Source: Deltaproteobacteria bacterium
GTDB lineage: Bacteria > Desulfobacterota > Desulfomonilia > UBA1062
Assembly (NCBI GenBank): GCA_022703355.1
Contig: JAKLDU010000006.1
Location: forward strand, 1-47,607
Direction of reading: 5' to 3'
DNA: 47,607 bases
This document shows positions 2,594 through 11,826 of this stretch, in pieces. How positions within the stretch are numbered: position 1 is the first letter of the stretch; the number at the start of each line of letters is the position of its first letter. The position numbers and the translations under genes are program-made. Below the pieces are notes generated by a model. That model was not told the DNA's origin. It saw only the letters and a list, made by a program, of their open reading frames with translations, and did not search any database.

Positions 2594-2630
2594 GGCACTT
2601 CCCGTGTCCCGGCCCCGGGCGCTCAGCATC

Positions 2631-3323
2631 CTATTCTGGTGATCGTCCGAGAAGTCGATAGGCAAGACCCCCCAGTATGCCCCCGACCACAGGGGCAAAC
2701 CAGAATAGCCAAAGCTGCTGGATTGCCCAGCCGCCGGCAAACAAGGCAACCCCGGTGCTCCGGGCTGGATTCACCGAGGTGTTGGTCACGGGAATGCTGA
2801 TGAGGTGGATGAGGGTGAGGCACAGGCCGATGGCTATGGGGGCAAAGCCCTTGGGGGCCCGCTCGTCGGTCGAGCCCATGATGACCATGAGGAACATGAA
2901 TGTCATGACGACTTCACAAACCAGGGCCGACGTGAACGAATAACCCCCGGGAGAGTGCTCGCCGTAGCCGTTGCTGGCAAAACCTGCCGAAACATCGAAA
3001 CCGGCGGCGCCACTTGCAATTGCGTACAGGACGCATGCCCCCGCAATCCCTCCCAGCACCTGAGCCAGGACATAGGGGACAAGGTCCTTTCCGGGGAACC
3101 GCCCGCCCGCGACCAGCCCGCAGGTGACCGCAGGGTTCAGATGGCAGCCCGAGATGTGACCCACGGCGAACGCCATGGTCAGCACCGTCAGCCCGAAAGC
3201 CAGGGCTACGCCGAGCAGTCCGATGCCGAGGTCCGGGAAAGCCGCGGCTATGACTGCGCTTCCACAACCACCGAGAACCAGCCAGAATGTTCCGAAAAAC
3301 TCAGCCCCAAGTCTTTGATACAT
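2631..3323 (-). CDS. aqpZ: Aquaporin Z-type water channel
   Basis: A 230-residue MIP-family channel with six membrane segments and both NPA boxes (HLNPAVT near residue 62 and SVNPARST near 187). The residues around the second box ([18 protein letters not shown]), together with F in ALAFGLTVL, match the narrow Phe/His/Thr/Arg selectivity filter of water-specific AqpZ and not a glycerol facilitator. AAAGGCGG precedes the ATG. It is divergent from the leader of the ior operon, with about 140 bases between its start and that promoter. No functional link to aromatic metabolism is apparent. Confidence 0.95.
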
Positions 3324-3463: not shown

Positions 3464-3495
3464 TTGACAGCCCGGACGCTTCTGTAGAATATACT
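3464..3495 (+). promoter_or_regulatory. Predicted sigma-70 promoter of the ior leader
   Basis: TTGACA at 3464-3469 is a perfect -35 box. The -10 region TAGAATATACT (3485-3495) offers overlapping hexamers: TAGAAT with a 15-base spacer, GAATAT with 17, and TATACT with 20. Transcription would begin around 3497-3502, only a few bases before the leader ATG at 3504. Confidence 0.7.
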
Positions 3496-3503
3496 CTGTC
3501 ATT

Positions 3504-3572
3504 ATGACGCAGAGCGATCAGCTTACGGCCTATTACTTTTACTTTTATTATCGCAGGAGCTCGTGTCCATAG
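3504..3572 (+). CDS. Aromatic-rich attenuation leader peptide (22 aa)
   Basis: This short ORF begins with ATG at 3504 and ends with TAG at 3570-3572. Codons 10-16 (3531-3551) read Tyr-Tyr-Phe-Tyr-Phe-Tyr-Tyr (YYFYFYY), seven aromatic residues in a row, flanked by MTQSDQLTA and RRSSCP. Such runs of the regulated amino acid are the hallmark of attenuator leader peptides (compare the pheA and trp leaders). The ATG is the only possible start, because the frame is closed by TGA at 3465-3467. No Shine-Dalgarno sequence is visible and the predicted transcription start lies only a few bases upstream, so translation may be leaderless. The stop codon falls inside region 2 of the attenuator, as the mechanism requires. 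Confidence 0.88.
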   Translation: MTQSDQLTAYYFYFYYRRSSCP

Positions 3573-3629
3573 GCCTGGGGCGCTCACCGGACAGGAAAAA
3601 GGCCGTGGACAAAATCCATGGCCTTTTTT
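3527..3629 (+). promoter_or_regulatory. Translation-dependent Phe/Tyr transcription attenuator
   Basis: Three mutually exclusive pairings can be drawn. The 1:2 pairing is GGCCTAT (3527-3533) with ATAGGCC (3569-3575), 7 bp. The 2:3 antiterminator is TGTCCA (3564-3569) with TGGACA (3606-3611) plus GGCCT (3572-3576) with AGGCC (3600-3604), 11 bp around a 2x1 internal loop. The 3:4 terminator is 3596-3609 with 3615-3628. A ribosome stalled on the Tyr/Phe codons (3531-3551) covers region 1 and frees region 2 to pair with 3, giving read-through. A ribosome at the TAG (3570) covers region 2 and lets 3:4 form. Without translation, 1:2 forms and termination follows. The geometry matches the classical enteric attenuators. 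The downstream genes act on aryl 2-oxoacids, which supports the assignment. Confidence 0.88.
3596..3629 (+). terminator. Intrinsic terminator (3:4 hairpin) of the attenuator
   Basis: Stem 3596-3609 (AAAAAGGCCGTGGA) pairs with 3615-3628 (TCCATGGCCTTTTT): 14 bp with one G-U pair, a 5-base loop CAAAA and a run of six T (3624-3629). It lies 130 bases before iorA with no other gene between, so it can only act as a conditional terminator of that operon. A small hairpin GTGCCC-AAAA-GGGCAC (3666-3681) follows. Confidence 0.93.
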
Positions 3630-3759: not shown

Positions 3760-5487
3760 ATGAAGAAGATTCTGAGTGGGAACGAGGCGATTGCCCGGGG
3801 GGCTTACGAGGCGGGCGTGGGGTTCGCAGCCGCCTACCCCGGCACACCCTCGACGGAGGTCCTCGAGTGCATCGCTGCCGGATACCCCGGCATCCATGCC
3901 GAGTGGACACCCAATGAAAAGGTGGCCCTCGAGGTGGCCGCGGGCGCTTCTTACACGGGCGCGAGGGCCATGGCCGTCATGAAGCACGTGGGCGTGAACG
4001 TGGCCGCCGACCCCCTCATGACCCTGCCCTACACCCTCATCCGCGGCGGGATCGTGCTCGTGAGCGCCGACGACCCGGAGCTCTTCTCCTCGCAGAACGA
4101 GCAGGACAACCGGCACTATGCGCGCTTCGCCAAGATCCCCCTGCTGGAGCCCACCACCTCGCAGGAGGCGAAGGACTTCACGAAGGAGGCGTTTAAGATC
4201 TCAGAGCAGTTCGGGACGCCGGTGATGCTGCGCACCACCACGCGGATCTCCCACTCCATGGGCATCGTGGAAATGGGCGAGGTGGCCGGTCAGCCCGTCC
4301 CCTCCATCGAGAGGCACCCGGCGGAGTGGGTGATGCTGCCCGCCAACGCCCGGGTCCGCCACCCTCTCATCGAGAAGCGCCTGCTCGAGCTGAAGGAGTA
4401 TGCGAACAGCTCGCCCCTCAACTCGGTGGAGATGGGCGACGGGAAGATCGGGATCATCTCCGCGGGGGTCGCCTACCAGTATGCGAAGGAGGCCTTCCCC
4501 GGGGCGTCCTTCCTGAAGCTGGGCATGCCGTACCCCCTGCCCGACAGGCTCGTCAGGGAGTTCGCCTCGAAGGTCGACGAGCTCTGGGTCGTTGAAGAGC
4601 TCGACCCCTTCATGGAAGACCAGATCAGGGCCCTGGGCATCGCGTGCCGCGGCAAGGACAGGCTGCCCCTGTGCGGCGAGCTGAACCCCGACATCATCGG
4701 GACCGCCATCTCAGGCGCTGCCCCCGAGCCCTTCAGAAAGCCCGCCCTGCCGGGCAGGCCGCCGAGCATGTGCCCGGGCTGCCCGCACCGGAGCCTCCTG
4801 TGGGCGCTCCGCCGGAACAAGGCCTTCATCGCCGGCGACATCGGGTGCTACACCCTGGGCTTCCTCCCGCCGCTCTCCGCCATCGACACCTGCCTGTGCA
4901 TGGGCGCGGGCATCAACCACGCCCACGGCATGGCGACGGTCTTCGGGCCGGGCAGGGAAAAGATCGCCGCGGTCATCGGCGACTCCACGTTCTACCACTC
5001 GGGCATCACGGGGCTCACGAACCTCGCCTACAATAAAGGTGCGGCCCTCGTGGTGATCCTGGACAACTCCACCACGGCCATGACCGGGGCACAGGACCAC
5101 CCGGGCACGGGCGTCACCATCGGCGGCGAACAGACGATCAGGCTCGACCTCGAAAAGCTCGTGAAGGCCCTGGGCATCGAGTGGGTAAAGACCGTGGACC
5201 CCTACGACGTGAAGAAGACGAGGAAGACCATCAAGGCGGCCCTGGCCCACGACGGCCCCTCGGTCATCATCTCGAAGGCCCCCTGCGTGCTCCTGAGATC
5301 GAAAAAGGTCCCGGGTGAGCCCCTGTGCGTCGACCCCGAGAAGTGCATCGGCTGCAAGGTGTGCATCGGCCTCGGGTGCCCGGCCATCGAGTTCAGGGAC
5401 GAGAAGTCCTCCATCAACAGCTCGTGCGTGGGCTGCGGCGTGTGCGGGGAGCTGTGCGCCCAGGGCGCCATCGGAGGTGGCAAATGA
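3760..5487 (+). CDS. iorA: Indolepyruvate:ferredoxin oxidoreductase, alpha subunit
   Basis: IorA with IorB interconverts aryl 2-oxoacids (indolepyruvate, phenylpyruvate, 4-hydroxyphenylpyruvate) plus CoA and the arylacetyl-CoA plus CO2, using ferredoxin. The 575-residue product has an N-terminal pyrimidine-binding domain (AAAYPGTPSTEVLE). The thiamine diphosphate domain follows, with MCPGCPHRS near residue 337, GDIGCYTLGF, and GDSTFYHSGITGL with ILDNSTTAMTG. A C-terminal 2[4Fe-4S] ferredoxin domain has CIGCKVCIGLGCP near 529 and CVGCGVCGELC near 556. The ATG at 3760 is chosen for the GGGGGGAA upstream and the family-typical start MKKILSGNEAIARGAYEAG; the reading frame extends upstream to 3655 without support. 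The 3' end overlaps iorB by 4 bases (ATGA). Transcription is expected to depend on the Tyr/Phe attenuator. Confidence 0.96.
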   Translation: MKKILSGNEAIARGAYEAGVGFAAAYPGTPSTEVLECIAAGYPGIHAEWTPNEKVALEVAAGASYTGARAMAVMKHVGVNVAADPLMTLPYTLIRGGIVLVSADDPELFSSQNEQDNRHYARFAKIPLLEPTTSQEAKDFTKEAFKISEQFGTPVMLRTTTRISHSMGIVEMGEVAGQPVPSIERHPAEWVMLPANARVRHPLIEKRLLELKEYANSSPLNSVEMGDGKIGIISAGVAYQYAKEAFPGASFLKLGMPYPLPDRLVREFASKVDELWVVEELDPFMEDQIRALGIACRGKDRLPLCGELNPDIIGTAISGAAPEPFRKPALPGRPPSMCPGCPHRSLLWALRRNKAFIAGDIGCYTLGFLPPLSAIDTCLCMGAGINHAHGMATVFGPGREKIAAVIGDSTFYHSGITGLTNLAYNKGAALVVILDNSTTAMTGAQDHPGTGVTIGGEQTIRLDLEKLVKALGIEWVKTVDPYDVKKTRKTIKAALAHDGPSVIISKAPCVLLRSKKVPGEPLCVDPEKCIGCKVCIGLGCPAIEFRDEKSSINSSCVGCGVCGELCAQGAIGGGK

Positions 5488-6044
5488 ACGTGCTCATGAC
5501 AGGCGTGGGCGGGCAGGGCATCATCCTCGCCTCGGACATGCTCTCCGACGTGATGATGCGCGCCGGCTTCGACGTGAAGAAATCGGAGATCCACGGCATG
5601 GCCCAGCGCGGGGGCAGCGTGATGTCCCACGTGCGGTACGGCAGGCACGTGTCCTCGCCCCTCATCCCCTTGGGCGCCTGCGACGTCCTGCTCTCCTTCG
5701 AGGAGCTCGAGGCGGCCCGTTACGTCCAGTACCTGAAAAAGGGCGCCACCGTGATCATCAACCGCTACCGGCTCGCCCCCCCCTCGGTCATCTCGGGCGG
5801 GGAGCCCTACCCGGACATCCTGCCCGTGCTCCGGGAAAAGACGGACACCATCGTGATGGTGGACGGCACGAAGATCGCTGAAGATATGGGCAATCCGAAG
5901 GGGGTCAACACCATCCTGCTGGGCAGGCTCTCGACCTTCCTCGAGGCCGACGAGTCCCTCTGGATAGAGGCCATGAATTCCATGCTCAAGGAAAAGATCC
6001 GCACAGCCAACATCGAGGGCTTCAGGCGGGGGAGACACGCATAA
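5484..6044 (+). CDS. iorB: Indolepyruvate:ferredoxin oxidoreductase, beta subunit
   Basis: The 186-residue gamma-type subunit of the 2-oxoacid:ferredoxin oxidoreductase family, partner of IorA. It starts MNVLMTGVGGQGIILASD with the glycine-rich GVGGQG signature, followed by SEIHGMAQRGGSVMSHVR, both diagnostic of IorB/PorG-type subunits that bind CoA. The ATG overlaps the iorA stop (ATGA) and is preceded by GGAGG (5473-5477) at 6-base spacing, so translation is coupled. The stop is followed 27 bases later by the ligase gene. Length is close to the family norm of about 190 residues. Confidence 0.95.
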   Translation: MNVLMTGVGGQGIILASDMLSDVMMRAGFDVKKSEIHGMAQRGGSVMSHVRYGRHVSSPLIPLGACDVLLSFEELEAARYVQYLKKGATVIINRYRLAPPSVISGGEPYPDILPVLREKTDTIVMVDGTKIAEDMGNPKGVNTILLGRLSTFLEADESLWIEAMNSMLKEKIRTANIEGFRRGRHA

Positions 6045-6071: not shown

Positions 6072-7373
6072 ATGATCTATAACGAGGAGTTCGAAACACT
6101 GCCCCGGGAGGCCGTCGAGGCCCTGCAGCTCAAGAGGCTCCAGCAGGTGGTGAGCAGGGTCTACCACACCGTGGGGTTCTACAAGAAGGCCTTCGACAAC
6201 GCCGGGGTGGCCCCCGAGGACGTCAGGAGTTTAGACGACCTCAAGCGCCTGCCCTTCACCGTCAAGCAGGACCTGCGGGACAACTACCCCTTCGGGCTCT
6301 TCAGCGTGCCCATGACCAGCATCGTGCGCCTGCACGCCTCGTCGGGCACCACGGGAAAGCCCACGGTGGTGGGCTACACGAAGCGCGACGTGGACACCTG
6401 GGCGACCCTCATGGCCCGCTCGTTCGCGGCCGCCGGCCTCACCAGGAACGACATCATCCACAACTCCTACGGCTACGGCCTCTTCACCGGGGGCCTGGGC
6501 GCCCACTACGGCGCGGAGAAGCTCGGTGCGAGCGTCATCCCCATGTCCGGCGGGTCCACGAAAAAACAGATCATGCTCCTGCAGGACTTCGGGCCCACGG
6601 CCATCTGCTGCACGCCCTCGTACCTGCTCTTCCTGGCCGAGGCGGGCAAGGAGATGGGCGTCGACATGAAGGCGCTCAAGCTCAGGGTGGGCATCCTGGG
6701 CGCCGAGCCCTGGAGCGAGCGGATGCGCGCCCAGATCGAAAAGGAGCTCGACATCACGGCGCTCAACATCTACGGCCTGTCCGAGGTCATGGGCCCGGGC
6801 GTCGCCATGGAGTGCATCGAGGGCAGGAACGGGCTGCACATCTACGAGGACCACTTCATCGCGGAGATCATCGACCCCAAGACGGGCGAGGTCCTGCCCT
6901 ACGGCGAGACCGGCGAGCTCGTGTTCACCACCATCACCAAGGAGGCCTTCCCCCTCATCAGGTACCGGACGAAGGACATCACCCGGCTTATGCCCGAGGT
7001 GTGCACGTGCGGCAGGACCTTCGTCCGCATGGAGCGCGTGTCTGGCAGGAGCGACGACATGCTCATCATCAGGGGCGTCAACGTGTTCCCCTCCCAGATC
7101 GAGAGCGTCATCATGGAGATCGAAGGGCTCGAGCCGCACTACCAGCTCATCGTGGACCGGGAAGGGTCGCTCGACACCCTGGAGATCCAGGTCGAGGTGA
7201 GCGAGCGAGTCTTCTCCGACGAGATCCGCGGCCTGCAGAGCCTCGAGAAGCGCATCAAAAAAGACGTCAAGGACTATCTCGGCGTCACGGCGAAGGTGAA
7301 GCTCGTGGAGCCCAAGTCCCTGCAGAGGTTCGAGGGCAAGGCGCAGCGGGTTGTGGACAAGAGGAATATCTAG
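6072..7373 (+). CDS. paaK: Phenylacetate-CoA ligase family protein
   Basis: AMP-forming aryl-CoA ligase of 433 residues, the PaaK length. Adenylating-enzyme motifs are in order: the P-loop [14 protein letters not shown] near residue 91, [15 protein letters not shown] near 236, [10 protein letters not shown] near 297, and [20 protein letters not shown] near 327. An ACT-like C-terminal lobe (LQIEVSERVF-type region) completes the fold. GGAGG stands 8 bases before the ATG. PaaK activates phenylacetate, 4-hydroxyphenylacetate or indoleacetate with ATP. Beside IorAB it could work in two directions: supplying arylacetyl-CoA for reductive carboxylation (favoured here because of the leader attenuator), or, run in reverse, conserving ATP from arylacetyl-CoA. 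Exact aryl specificity is not readable from sequence. Confidence 0.92.
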
Positions 7374-7383
7374 GAGGTTTCCC

Positions 7384-7815
7384 ATGAAGGCGGAACAGAT
7401 CTCGATCTTTCTGGAAAACAAGCCCGGCGGCCTCTCCAGCGTCACCGGGGCGCTCAAGGACGCGGGGATCAACATCCGGGCCCTGTCGCTGGCAGACACC
7501 TCGGACTTCGGCATCCTGAGGCTCATCGTGGACAACGTGGCCAGGGCCAAGGAGGTCCTGAACGCGGCGGGGTTCGCCGTGGGCAAGACCCACGTGGTGG
7601 CCGTGGAAGTCCCGGACAGGCCGGGCGGGCTCCACAGCATCCTCGAGCTGCTCACGGGCAGCGGCATCAACGTGGAGTACATGTACGCCTTCGTGGAGCG
7701 CAGCGGCGAGAACGCGGTCATCATCTTCCGGTTCGACTCCACAGACCAGGCCATCGACGTGCTCCTGAAGGCGGGCTTCACCGTGCTGCCCGGGGAGAAG
7801 GTGTACGGGCTCTAG
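7384..7815 (+). CDS. Tandem ACT-domain protein
   Basis: A 143-residue protein made of two ACT domains (residues 1-70: [19 protein letters not shown]; 71-143: [19 protein letters not shown]). ACT domains bind amino acids or related ligands at a glycine-containing loop and usually regulate metabolism. The start at 7384 follows TAGGAGG, which overlaps the ligase stop codon (7371-7373), so the gene is translationally linked to it. Its paralogue lies at the other end of the operon on the opposite strand. Such proteins often neighbour iorAB-paaK. Sensing of Phe, Tyr or an aryl acid is a reasonable inference but unproven. Confidence 0.88.
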
Positions 7816-7817
7816 CC

Positions 7818-8252
7818 ATGGGGCTCGACCTCGACCAGGGCAGGGAGATGGCCCGCATCGTCGCGCAGCCCTTCAGGGACACGGAGGGAAAGGAGGCGGC
7901 GCTGCCGGTGGTCGCCCGGATATTCCTCGTGGCGGGCATCGTGGCGTGCCTGGCGGGCATTGTCCTCACCATCCTCACCGGGGGATTTCTCCCCCTGGGG
8001 CTGGGCATCGGGAGCCTCGTGCCGGGCGTCGCCCTGTACGTGCTCTTCGGGGCGCTGGCAGAGGTCATCGTGCTGCTCAAGCGGATCGCGGGTCTGCCGT
8101 GCCGGGGGACCATCTCCGGCATGACCGAGGGCACCATATCGGTCTGCTCCGAGTGCGGGAGCATGGTCTACCCCGACAACGTCAAGTGCCCCTCGTGCAA
8201 TGCCGACTTCGCACCCGTCGGCCGGGCAGGGGAGGGCGAGGGGAAAAGTTAG
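7818..8252 (+). CDS. Small membrane protein with C-terminal zinc ribbon
   Basis: Not recognised as a named family. The 144-residue product has a charged N-terminus, two predicted membrane segments (about residues 32-55, VARIFLVAGIVACLAGIVL; and 58-85), and a cytosolic tail with a four-cysteine zinc ribbon (CSECGSMVY...CPSCNADF, near residues 109-128). It begins 2 bases after the ACT gene stop with no clear Shine-Dalgarno sequence, so it is probably translated by coupling; ATG 7848 is an alternative start. Position in the ior operon suggests a role tied to aryl-acid metabolism or transport, but no function can be assigned. Confidence 0.7.
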   Translation: MGLDLDQGREMARIVAQPFRDTEGKEAALPVVARIFLVAGIVACLAGIVLTILTGGFLPLGLGIGSLVPGVALYVLFGALAEVIVLLKRIAGLPCRGTISGMTEGTISVCSECGSMVYPDNVKCPSCNADFAPVGRAGEGEGKS

Positions 8253-8368: not shown

Positions 8369-9421
8369 ATGAAAAAATTAGGAGCAAGTCTTATCTGTTG
8401 TCTCGTTGCCCTGACGCTCTGCGTGTCGTGCGGCAGGAAGTCCGAGGAAGGGGCGGCCACCGGGGGCGAAGCCGCGAAGGCGAACGTGGTGGAGCTCACG
8501 TACAGCATCTTCTTCCCGCCCACCCACGCCCAGTGCAAGGCTGCCCAGGACTGGGCCGCCGAGATCGAGAAGCGCACGAACGGCGCGGTGAAGATCAACG
8601 TGTTCCCCGGCGGGACGCTCACGAGCGCCAACGACTGCTACGACGGCGTGGTGAAGGGGATCTCGGACCTCGGGATGTCCTGCTTCGCCTACACCAGGGG
8701 AAGGTTCCCGGTCATGGAGGCCCTCGACCTGCCGCTGGGGTACCCCAACGGGACGGCGGCCACGAAGATCGCCAACGAGTTCTACAGTGAGGTGAAGCCC
8801 AGGGAGCTCGACGACGTGCATGTGCTCTACATCCACGCCCACGGGCCGGGCCTGCTGCACACCAAGAAGCCCGTGAGCACCCTCAAGGACCTCAAGGCCA
8901 TGAAGATCCGCTCCACGGGCCTGAGCGCCAAGCTCGTCGAGGCACTGGGCGGCGTGCCCGTGGCCATGCCCCAGCCCGGCACCTACGAGGCGCTCCAGAA
9001 GGGCGTGGTGGACGGCACCTTCGCCCCCATGGAGACCATGAAGGGCTGGAAGCAGGGCGAGGTGGTGAAGTCCACCACGGACTGCAAGAACATCGGCTAC
9101 ACCACGGCCATGTTCGTGGTCATGAACAAGGCAAAGTGGGACTCGCTGCCCGAGGACGTCAAGAAGGTGTTCGCCGACGTGAGCGCCGAGTACGTCGCCA
9201 TCCAGGGCAAGGTCTGGGACGACGCCGACGCCGAGGGGCTGACCTTCGTCAGGAGTCTCGGCAACACCGTGGTGAGCCTGCCCGAAGCCGAGGCGGCCAC
9301 ATGGAAGGCCGCCGTGAAGCCCGTCATCGACGACTACGTCAAGGCGGCGAAGGCAAAGGGCCTCGAGGGTGACAAGTACGTCGCCTCCCTGGAGGAAAAG
9401 ATCGCAAAGTCCGGCAAATAG
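8369..9421 (+). CDS. dctP: TRAP transporter substrate-binding lipoprotein DctP
   Basis: Extracytoplasmic solute receptor of a tripartite ATP-independent periplasmic transporter. The 350-residue product has a lipoprotein signal (LTLCVSC lipobox, cysteine near residue 21) and the DctP fold: [40 protein letters not shown], and [10 protein letters not shown] with the conserved arginine that clamps a carboxylate ligand. GAGGAGG precedes the ATG. A 116-base gap separates it from the previous gene, so an additional internal promoter is possible, but no convincing boxes were seen. The ligand is unknown; an aryl carboxylate such as phenylacetate would suit the operon. Confidence 0.93.
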
Positions 9422-9442
9422 CCAATCAAGACATGGATGGGC

Positions 9443-9478
9443 GGGCCGGCCTCCGGCAGTGAGAGCGGGGGCCGGCCC
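9443..9478 (+). repeat. Intercistronic hairpin between dctP and dctQ
   Basis: GGGCCGGCC (9443-9451) pairs with GGCCGGCCC (9470-9478), a 9-bp G/C stem with an 18-base loop and no T-run. Structures like this after solute-receptor genes often stabilise the upstream mRNA, so that the receptor is made in excess over the membrane subunits. That role is inferred here. Confidence 0.5.
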
Positions 9479-9499
9479 CGGTGTCCAGAGGAGTCTCAC

Positions 9500-9994
9500 A
9501 TGATTTCCTTTCTGCGCATAGAGAAGTTCGTCAATGCCCTGGCGGAAAAGGTGAACCTGATCGCCGCCTTCGCGGTGGCCTTCATCATGCTTCTCACCGT
9601 GGGGGACGTGGCCGGCCGGCTTTTCGGCAGCCCCATCCCGGGGACCTTCGAGCTCGTGGGGTTCGTGGGCTCGGCGATCATCTCGTTCTCGCTGCCGTAC
9701 ACCTCGATCCAGAACGGGCACATCTCCGTGGACATCCTCATGGCGAAGATGCCCCGGCTGGTGAGGGTGGTCGTGTACGCGGTCAACGCCCTCGTCTCCC
9801 TGGCCCTCTTCGGGGTCGTCACGTGGCAGAGCGCGGTCTATGCCCACGGCCTGAGGCTTTCCGGTGAGGTCTCCCCCACGCTCCAGATGCCGGTGTACCC
9901 GTTCATCTACGGCGTGGCGGTGGGGTGCGGCATGCTCTGCGTGGTGCTGTTCGTGGAGTTCCTGCGTCAGTTCAAGGGGGCTGAGATAGAATGA
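9500..9994 (+). CDS. dctQ: TRAP transporter small membrane subunit DctQ
   Basis: A 164-residue protein with four predicted membrane helices, the size and topology of DctQ subunits that join the receptor to the large permease. A typical feature is the stretch AFIMLLTVGDVAGRLFGSPI near residue 30, followed by GTFELVGFVGS. The ATG at 9500 is chosen because AGAGGAG lies 6 bases upstream; the open frame begins earlier (9437) without a ribosome site. Its TGA overlaps the dctM ATG (ATGA at 9991-9994), so the two membrane subunits are translationally coupled. Confidence 0.92.
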   Translation: MISFLRIEKFVNALAEKVNLIAAFAVAFIMLLTVGDVAGRLFGSPIPGTFELVGFVGSAIISFSLPYTSIQNGHISVDILMAKMPRLVRVVVYAVNALVSLALFGVVTWQSAVYAHGLRLSGEVSPTLQMPVYPFIYGVAVGCGMLCVVLFVEFLRQFKGAEIE

Positions 9995-11292
9995 GTCCAA
10001 CAATAATCGGCATCATCGGGCTTCTGGCGCTGGTCGTCCTGATCTTCAGCAGGATTCCCGTGGGCTTCGTCATGGCCCTCATCGGCTTCGTCGGGTTCAG
10101 CGCCATCGTTTCCGTGGACTCGGCACTGAGCCTCATGGCCAAGGACTTCTTCGCGGTGTTCTCGTCCTACAATCTCACGGTGATCCCGCTCTTCGTGCTC
10201 ATGGGGCAGATCGCCTTCCACGCGGGCATCTCGTCGCGGCTCTTCGACACGGCGTACAAGTTCATCGGCCACCTGCCCGGGGGGCTCGCCATCGCCACGG
10301 TGGGAGCGTGCGCGGCCTTTGCCGCCATCTGCGGGTCCACGAACGCCACGGCGGCCACCATGGCGGCGGCGACCCTGCCCGAGATGAAGCGCTACAACTA
10401 CAAGCCCGAGCTGGCCACCGGCGTGGTGGCGGCGGGCGGAAGCCTGGGCATCCTCATCCCGCCCAGCGTCATCTTCATCGTGTACGGGATCCTCACCGAG
10501 CAGTCCATCGGCAAGCTGTTCATCTCGGGCATCCTGCCCGGCATCATCCTGACCATATTCTTCATCGCCGCCATCCTCATCTGGGTGACGCTGAGGCCCG
10601 AGCTCGGACCCAAGGGGCCGAAGAGCTCCTGGAAGGAAAGGGTCGCGTCCCTGCCCGGCACGCTCGAGATCCTGGTCATCTTCGTGTTCGTCATGGGCGG
10701 GCTCTTCATGGGGCTCTTCACCCCCACGGAGGCGGGGGGTATGGGCGCCTTCGCCACCCTCCTGGTGGCCGTCGCCAAGCGCAACATCGACTGGAAGGGG
10801 TTCGTGCAGGCCCTCGAGGAAACCACGAGGATATCCTGCATGATCATGGTCATCGTGGCGGGCGCCACGGTGTTCGGGCACTTTCTCGCCGTGTCGCGCA
10901 TCCCCTACGACATCGCGGGCTGGATCTCGTCGTTCAACCTGCCGCCCTGGGCCATCATGAGCTTCATCATCCTGATCTACCTCATCGGCGGGTGCTTCAT
11001 CGACTCCCTGGCGCTCATCATGCTCACCATCCCCATCTTCTACCCCGTGGTGCTGCACTACGGGTTCGACCCCATCTGGTTCGGGGTGATCATCGTGCTC
11101 GTCACCCAGATGGGCGTCATCACGCCACCGGTGGGGGTGAACGTCTACGTGGTGGGAGGCGTGGCCAGGGACGTGCCCCTGCACGTCATCTTCAAGGGCG
11201 CCCTGCCCCTGCTCCTGGCCATGATCCTCCTGACCTTCCTCCTCATCCCCTTCCCGCAGATCGCGACTTTCCTGCCGAGCCTCGTCAAATAG
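9991..11292 (+). CDS. dctM: TRAP transporter large permease subunit DctM
   Basis: The 433-residue DctM permease carries out ion-driven carboxylate import. It is hydrophobic throughout, with about 12 membrane segments. Family motifs include RIPVGFVMALIGFVGF, GSTNATAATMAAATLPEMKR, ATGVVAAGGSLGILIPPSV, GCFIDSLALIMLTIPIFYPV and QMGVITPPVGVNVYVV. The ATG overlaps the dctQ stop by 4 bases. A bidirectional terminator 22 bases after the stop ends the operon. With dctP and dctQ it forms a complete transporter. Confidence 0.95.
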   Translation: MSPTIIGIIGLLALVVLIFSRIPVGFVMALIGFVGFSAIVSVDSALSLMAKDFFAVFSSYNLTVIPLFVLMGQIAFHAGISSRLFDTAYKFIGHLPGGLAIATVGACAAFAAICGSTNATAATMAAATLPEMKRYNYKPELATGVVAAGGSLGILIPPSVIFIVYGILTEQSIGKLFISGILPGIILTIFFIAAILIWVTLRPELGPKGPKSSWKERVASLPGTLEILVIFVFVMGGLFMGLFTPTEAGGMGAFATLLVAVAKRNIDWKGFVQALEETTRISCMIMVIVAGATVFGHFLAVSRIPYDIAGWISSFNLPPWAIMSFIILIYLIGGCFIDSLALIMLTIPIFYPVVLHYGFDPIWFGVIIVLVTQMGVITPPVGVNVYVVGGVARDVPLHVIFKGALPLLLAMILLTFLLIPFPQIATFLPSLVK

Positions 11293-11313: not shown

Positions 11314-11344
11314 AAAAGCCCTGTGGATGCCACAGGGCTTTTTT
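11314..11344. terminator. Bidirectional intrinsic terminator
   Basis: AAAAGCCCTGTGG (11314-11326), a 3-base loop and CCACAGGGCTTTT (11330-11342) form a perfect 13-bp stem. T-tracts flank it on both strands (six T after the + arm; an A-rich stretch before the left arm). It ends the ior-dct operon and also the opposing ACT gene. Confidence 0.95.
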
Positions 11345-11370: not shown

Positions 11371-11826
11371 TCAGTACTTCATGTAGTGGAACGGCTCGAT
11401 GGTGGCCAGGGCTTCGGCGCTCAACGTCTTGAACTTGTGCTCCTTGAGGATTCTCTGGGTTTTCTCGAGCTCGGACACGTGCACCACGAACACGGCGGTC
11501 TTGCTGCTCTCGAGCACGAACCCGTAGGCGTTCTCGATGTTGATGCCTTCGGCGCCCAAAAGCTGGGCGAGCTTGTCCATGCCGCCTGGCCTGTCCTCGA
11601 TGAGCACGGCGATGATCTCCTTGAGGCTCGCCTCGATGCCTTCCTTTGCCAGCGCCTTCTGGGCGAGCCTGGGGTCGTCGACGAGGATGTTGAAGAACCC
11701 CCGCTCCCCGAAGGAGGAGATGGTGATGGCCCGGACGTTGATTTTTTCCCTGGTGAGGACGCCGGAGACCTTTGCCAGTTTGCCCGGGGTGTTGTCCACG
11801 GGAACCGTGAGCTGATATGCGATCAT
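11371..11826 (-). CDS. Tandem ACT-domain protein (second copy)
   Basis: A 151-residue protein with two ACT domains: residues 1-70 (QLTVPVDNTPGKLAKVSGVL) and 71-151 (IIAVLIEDRPGGMDKLAQLL). It shares architecture with the product at 7384-7815, including the D-x-PG ligand-loop motif in both halves, so the two are probably distant paralogues. AAGGAAGGTG precedes the ATG. It is transcribed towards the ior-dct operon and shares its terminator. It may sense an amino acid or aryl acid. No enzymatic domain is fused to it, so a regulatory partner must be supplied in trans. Confidence 0.88.
   Translation of the reverse strand: MIAYQLTVPVDNTPGKLAKVSGVLTREKINVRAITISSFGERGFFNILVDDPRLAQKALAKEGIEASLKEIIAVLIEDRPGGMDKLAQLLGAEGINIENAYGFVLESSKTAVFVVHVSELEKTQRILKEHKFKTLSAEALATIEPFHYMKY

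Follow-up and report, generated by a model that had tools for sequence, protein, structure and literature searches.

An operon for an indolepyruvate:ferredoxin oxidoreductase (IOR) in the window, i.e., the whole stretch of 47,607 nucleotides analysed here, is preceded by a leader that very probably acts as a ribosome-mediated attenuator of the trp/phe type, by which iorAB-paaK-ACT, perhaps with the adjoining TRAP transporter genes, would be induced upon shortage of phenylalanine or tyrosine and would serve biosynthesis. Taking into account the leader, its control codons, three helices, their conservation, and an element common with DAHP synthase genes, sequence comparison argues that the attenuator is real, and in all likelihood it works as a preliminary description of this DNA had proposed. 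Translation of the leader, ribosome stalling, the response to Phe and Tyr, the direction of the enzyme, and the extent of the transcript are predicted from these features.

The genes downstream of the leader are located on the + strand and begin with iorA for the alpha subunit (3760-5487; TIGR03336, 740.8 bits at a cut-off of 650.9) and iorB for the beta subunit (5484-6044; NF005322, 234.5 bits at a cut-off of 237). A paaK-type AMP-forming arylacetate--CoA ligase (6072-7373; TIGR02155, 644.6 bits at a cut-off of 646.3; PF14535 and PF00501) and a protein with a pair of ACT domains of the amino-acid-binding type (7384-7815; PF19571, 97.6 bits) follow; the latter is found after paaK in relatives as well, where the gene order iorA-iorB-paaK-ACT is kept. 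A small protein with a possible zinc ribbon (7818-8252) and the TRAP transporter genes at 8369-11292, comprising dctP (8369-9421), dctQ (about 9497-9994), and dctM (9991-11292), perhaps belong to the same transcript, and dctP also follows in 10 other loci. A simple scan of the + strand between 5400 and 12500 has revealed no terminator-like site, and a single transcript from iorA into the TRAP genes is possible. The operon may end at a hairpin at 11314-11342, which has been reported for the - strand and is nearly symmetric. This hairpin separates dctM from a second ACT-type protein (11371-11826, - strand) that is convergent with the operon. For Desulfococcus multivorans, the import of phenylalanine or phenylacetate has been proposed for a TRAP system that is encoded next to phenylacetate genes (PMC5109826).

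Upstream of iorA, a leader ORF of 22 codons, MTQSDQLTAYYFYFYYRRSSCP, extends on the + strand from the ATG at 3504 to the TAG at 3570-3572 and is supported by orthologous leaders. It carries seven consecutive control codons for Tyr and Phe (TAT TAC TTT TAC TTT TAT TAT, 3531-3551), which are under codon constraint and form the cluster of codons for the regulated amino acids that such a leader should have, and it is the sole short ORF with at least five aromatic residues in eight within the whole window on both strands. When the 436-nt region upstream was shuffled 1000 times with its dinucleotides preserved, no short ORF reached the seven aromatic residues in eight of the leader, the maximum being six in a single case. 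A perfect -35 element, TTGACA (3464-3469), and a -10-like element, GAATAT (3487-3492), are found further upstream on the + strand with a spacing of 17 nt; both had been absent from the preliminary description. The leader ATG is located 11 nt past the end of the -10-like element, from which transcription would be expected to start at about 3498-3500, and no Shine-Dalgarno motif precedes the ORF at 3504-3572. In all 17 leaders compared, TTGACA is perfect and stands 17-19 nt ahead of a -10-like hexamer, with the ATG following 5-11 nt past the latter, and a Shine-Dalgarno-like motif is absent in 14 of them. Based on this short distance and the frequent absence of the motif, translation of the leader probably takes place on an mRNA that is almost leaderless.

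The leader ORF overlaps three mutually exclusive pairings. Region 1 (GGCCTAT, 3527-3533), which overlaps the first control codon, pairs with ATAGGCC at 3569-3575, whereas region 2 (GTCCATAGGCCT, 3565-3576), which contains the leader stop, can alternatively pair with region 3 (AGGCCGTGGAC, 3600-3610), leaving one bulged A and adding a T3564-A3611 pair. Region 3 takes part either in this antiterminator 2:3 or in the terminator 3:4, and region 4 with its T tract (3615-3629), as seen from folding and covariation, completes an intrinsic terminator at 3596-3629, whose stem is perfect except for one G-U and which ends in a T run between the leader and the first structural gene. The 22-codon ORF with its seven Tyr/Phe codons, the three exclusive pairings, and the positions of region 1 over the first aromatic codon and of region 2 over the stop had all been claimed in the preliminary description, and each has been recovered here, with the aromatic run never matched by shuffled sequences. 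The leader folds with -46.2 kcal/mol, whereas its shuffles average -34.6 (z -3.26), and only 1 of 200 shuffles folds better. When the full leader is folded thermodynamically, 3:4 is favored in almost every case, and the switch is not displayed by such a fold. Therefore, transcripts ended before region 4 were folded, which mimics transcription, and the ribosome was represented by a blocked footprint. For a ribosome halted on the second of the aromatic codons, 8-10 bp of 2:3 have been predicted for 17 of 17 leaders, and with the ribosome at the stop codon 2:3 has been absent from all 17, both outcomes being fold predictions and not kinetics. Masked folding, as the preliminary description had suggested, thus gives the expected switch, and in these models ribosome position selects the fold, with region 1 at the control codons and the stop in or next to region 2. 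For untranslated leaders ended before region 4, the predictions were mixed, since the GGCC cores cross-pair.

According to the proposed mechanism, transcription would begin just upstream of 3504, and a ribosome would immediately take up the leader peptide. Under a shortage of charged tRNA-Tyr or tRNA-Phe, the ribosome would stall on codons 10-16 and mask region 1, the emerging region 3 would pair with region 2, and the terminator would be blocked, allowing iorA-iorB-paaK-ACT, perhaps with the TRAP transporter genes, to be transcribed. When both charged tRNAs are plentiful, the ribosome would reach the stop inside region 2, 3:4 would form, and transcription would end at about 3630. An untranslated leader would form 1:2 and 3:4, which would make off the default state. 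Regarding the enzymes, arylacetates would be taken up by the TRAP transporter, activated with CoA by PaaK, reductively carboxylated by IorAB to phenylpyruvate or hydroxyphenylpyruvate, and transaminated to Phe and Tyr.

IorA orthologs were taken from 24 genomes of the same order and from named genomes, and 19 distinct iorA orthologs had enough upstream DNA for comparison. Of these, 17 have a leader rich in aromatic residues whose last two residues are Cys-Pro, Arg-Pro or Ser-Pro; its stop codon is located in region 2, and the same terminator follows. The leaders have diverged widely, as in MLPNTLELLGFYFFIFRGMKVRP, MMKNTATQAYYYCFYFRKGGCP, MERETPRTCGYGYYYSRLYRCACP, and MKESILDFVAIYFNYYFGYYDPCP; upstream of the two others, L017 and L021, the element is missing, and in a twentieth ortholog (L007) regions 2-4 are visible before the contig ends. 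Between close relatives, the aromatic codons are mostly identical, synonymous, or swapped for another aromatic, whereas at non-aromatic codons the residue has mostly changed. Pairing in the ortholog alignment amounts to 97.9% for 3:4 (3 double-changed pairs), 94.1% for 2:3 (2 such pairs), and 80.2% for 1:2 (4 such pairs), and slid controls give a lower percentage of pairing and a lower covariation score than the three helices. In the window and in L004, for example, the second base of region 2 has changed from C to U together with a change from G to A of its partner in region 3. The mutually exclusive pairings 1:2, 2:3, and 3:4 are thus conserved between species by sequence comparison, with a weak 1:2 helix in 4 of the 17 (L012, L018-L020), and the alignment of relatives, likewise suggested in the preliminary description, has returned diverged aromatic leaders with covarying pairings in 17 of 19. 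Upstream of iorA paralogs of 38-42% identity in the same genomes, the search has yielded nothing beyond short ORFs that are scattered and poor in aromatic codons. The same holds for iorA genes of 50-60% identity outside the order, where the element is missing; many of these loci still have iorB-paaK-ACT.

A covariance model built from the iorA leaders (R1) was searched through the order, and many of its second-tier matches are located upstream of DAHP synthase genes, which ties the element to aromatic amino acid supply. A clear leader, e.g., MTTTSATRYYGYYFWFTRGEPPVG, precedes all 18 full-length close DAHP synthase orthologs (L151-L168, with 71% identity or more to that in G010), and L142 is a nineteenth such locus; these leaders are of a Phe/Tyr/Trp type with the pattern YYFWF ... 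PPVG before the stop. Among the 17 of them that were aligned, the 3:4 and 2:3 helices hardly vary, and consequently covariation says little there. Of the aroF leaders, 17 of 19 contain Trp codons, compared to 2 of 17 iorA leaders (Fisher p 5e-6, only indicative as the sequences are related), which fits a DAHP synthase feeding all three aromatics and a salvage route feeding Phe and Tyr. In the sister order of the class, differently worded aromatic leaders have been found before DAHP synthase (L184-L186, L188, L189), and none upstream of the iorA genes of that order. In G000, a contig end splits the DAHP synthase gene and leaves its leader region outside the contig. Near the DAHP synthase locus L162, a Cobalamin riboswitch has been detected at 969-1144 on the - strand (83.5 bits).

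The element is outside every Rfam family. The best Rfam leader family on the leader region is Thr_leader with 23.2 bits at a gathering cut-off of 55, a T-box covariance model gives no match there even at E up to 5, and neither Rfam leader families nor T-box have matched at gathering score in 15 related loci. E. coli pheL-pheA and trpL-trp share with the present leader the short ORF with control codons, three exclusive pairings, and an intrinsic terminator, but they control a chorismate branch and not a ferredoxin-dependent salvage operon for aryl acids; mixed Tyr and Phe codons, a probably near-leaderless leader, and the lack of a Rfam leader family at gathering score further set the present system apart. 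In Corynebacterium glutamicum, the aroR leader with Phe-Tyr-Phe codons controls the aroF DAHP synthase operon (Neshat et al., 2014, via PMC11802643), to which the DAHP synthase leaders of the order studied are a counterpart in a different phylum, where the same kind of leader also precedes iorAB-paaK. In Sinorhizobium meliloti rnTrpL/peTrpL (PMC7298713), the attenuator RNA likewise starts with a leaderless leader ORF; this system has Trp codons and trpE in place of the Tyr/Phe codons and iorA considered here, and trans action has been demonstrated for it. The preliminary description had recognized the mechanism from enteric operons and not from an iorA operon; indeed, no paper joining attenuation, leader peptide, and indolepyruvate ferredoxin oxidoreductase was found in the open-access literature, although a precedent in a subscription journal is conceivable. 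The mechanism is known, and its target, the iorAB operon, appears to be new as far as the open-access literature searched shows.

The gene content of the operon is compatible with a salvage to Phe and Tyr, for which the direction of IorAB is predicted. To our knowledge, no attenuator has been reported for the IOR of Methanococcus maripaludis. This archaeal enzyme resembles the proposed one in its use for making aromatic amino acids from aryl acids (Porat et al., 2004, via PMC4162585), and the formation of Phe from phenylacetate is possible in rumen bacteria (PMC7356843). Whether a bacterial IOR beside an arylacetate--CoA ligase makes or degrades amino acids is unsettled, as raised for Bacteroides in 2026, where an adjoining AMP-forming ligase has been argued to favor the biosynthetic direction (PMC13285125). 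The predicted Phe/Tyr switch of the starvation type would provide independent regulatory evidence for the making direction, and would extend ribosome-mediated attenuation to a salvage route of uncultured anaerobes that is based on reduced ferredoxin and CO2. Prephenate dehydratase and prephenate dehydrogenase are additionally encoded by most genomes of the order, so that the iorAB operon is usually a second route. In G007 (99% complete), the aro operon contains a chorismate mutase domain, an aminotransferase, tyrA, and aroA, and has lost, from its chorismate mutase gene (L266, about 2603-2972, minus strand), the prephenate dehydratase domain that is found in G006; the iorA operon of G007 retains the attenuator. 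This combination seems to support the biosynthetic direction, with a different dehydratase elsewhere in the genome being possible. The absence of pheA/tyrA from G000, a genome only 80% complete, and from G004, where the gene would fall past the contig end, was left out as evidence. The iorA ortholog, prephenate dehydratase, and prephenate dehydrogenase are all missing from G015, G018, and G019 (91-93% complete), which are possibly Phe/Tyr auxotrophs.

The opposite reading, in which the leader would sense an excess of Phe/Tyr like TnaC and turn on a degradative operon whose IorAB oxidises arylpyruvates to arylacetyl-CoA, is improbable, even though Desulfococcus multivorans on phenylpyruvate or phenylacetate forms an IorAB and a TRAP system (PMC5109826), and IOR of Bacteroides thetaiotaomicron has been linked to the conversion of Phe to phenylacetate (as cited in PMC13285125). 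Runs of control codons, exclusive 1:2, 2:3, and 3:4 pairings, and a stop in region 2 constitute a starvation-sensing layout, the same type of element is present upstream of DAHP synthase and other biosynthetic genes, and an AMP-forming ligase would spend ATP in a degradative role rather than save it.

We regard it as quite improbable that the attenuator is real and its leader RNA or peptide acts mainly in trans, as in Sinorhizobium meliloti. Leaders diverge freely except at aromatic codons and pairing segments, different genes have different leaders, and such a role would add to attenuation rather than replace it; nevertheless, the product of termination would be a small, near-leaderless RNA that spans about 130 nt and carries a conserved ORF, for which rnTrpL/peTrpL (PMC7298713) is a precedent. 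The T-rich control codons, and a repeated GGCC core that permits several segments to cross-pair, could also suggest a T-rich stretch read by chance as an ORF beside an ordinary terminator; with no match to the leader in 1000 shuffles, this has next to no likelihood, and a chance origin is refuted by the conservation with covariation in 17 genomes.

For attenuation as the preferred reading, the occurrence of related elements beyond the order was followed with R1 in 297 Desulfobacterota genomes, and the 40 best-placed fetched matches outside the order were read singly. Leaders with at least five aromatic residues in eight have been found for 31 of these 40, mostly preceding a PLP aminotransferase, shikimate kinase, ADTH synthase, or DAHP synthase, the downstream genes being identified by checking examples and for the rest by eye; iorA follows none of the 40. 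The leaders before PLP aminotransferases show the pattern FYFYFR.LHPGI.LL before the stop (within L226-L265), and in one match besides the 31, L247, a WWW leader precedes an anthranilate synthase-like gene (trpE). Aromatic leaders are also located before a metallo-beta-lactamase-fold hydrolase (L232, L234, L260). A few matches, e.g., L237, L257, and L265, have turned out to be false as aromatic leaders on reading. With R1, many aromatic attenuators that lack annotation have thus come to light in the phylum. We consider it rather probable that the Desulfobacterota possess a set of related aromatic attenuators, undescribed so far and spread across the phylum, by which the de novo route (DAHP synthase, ADTH synthase, shikimate kinase, aminotransferase, trpE) would be tuned as well as, within a single order, the reductive-carboxylation salvage by IorAB-PaaK, with leader codons matched to the products (Phe/Tyr/Trp vs. 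Phe/Tyr) and the direction of iorAB-paaK-ACT fixed as biosynthetic. Upstream of the pheA-tyrA operon no strong leader has been found. A Tyr-rich leader, MTTHACIRAYRYGYYYREGRCP (L138, 1492-1560, reverse complement), and a poly-Phe leader, MMRIVSLTNSSSFFFFFD (L190, 615-671), each with a stop and a terminator, precede Liv-type ABC substrate-binding proteins and possibly represent attenuated aromatic uptake.
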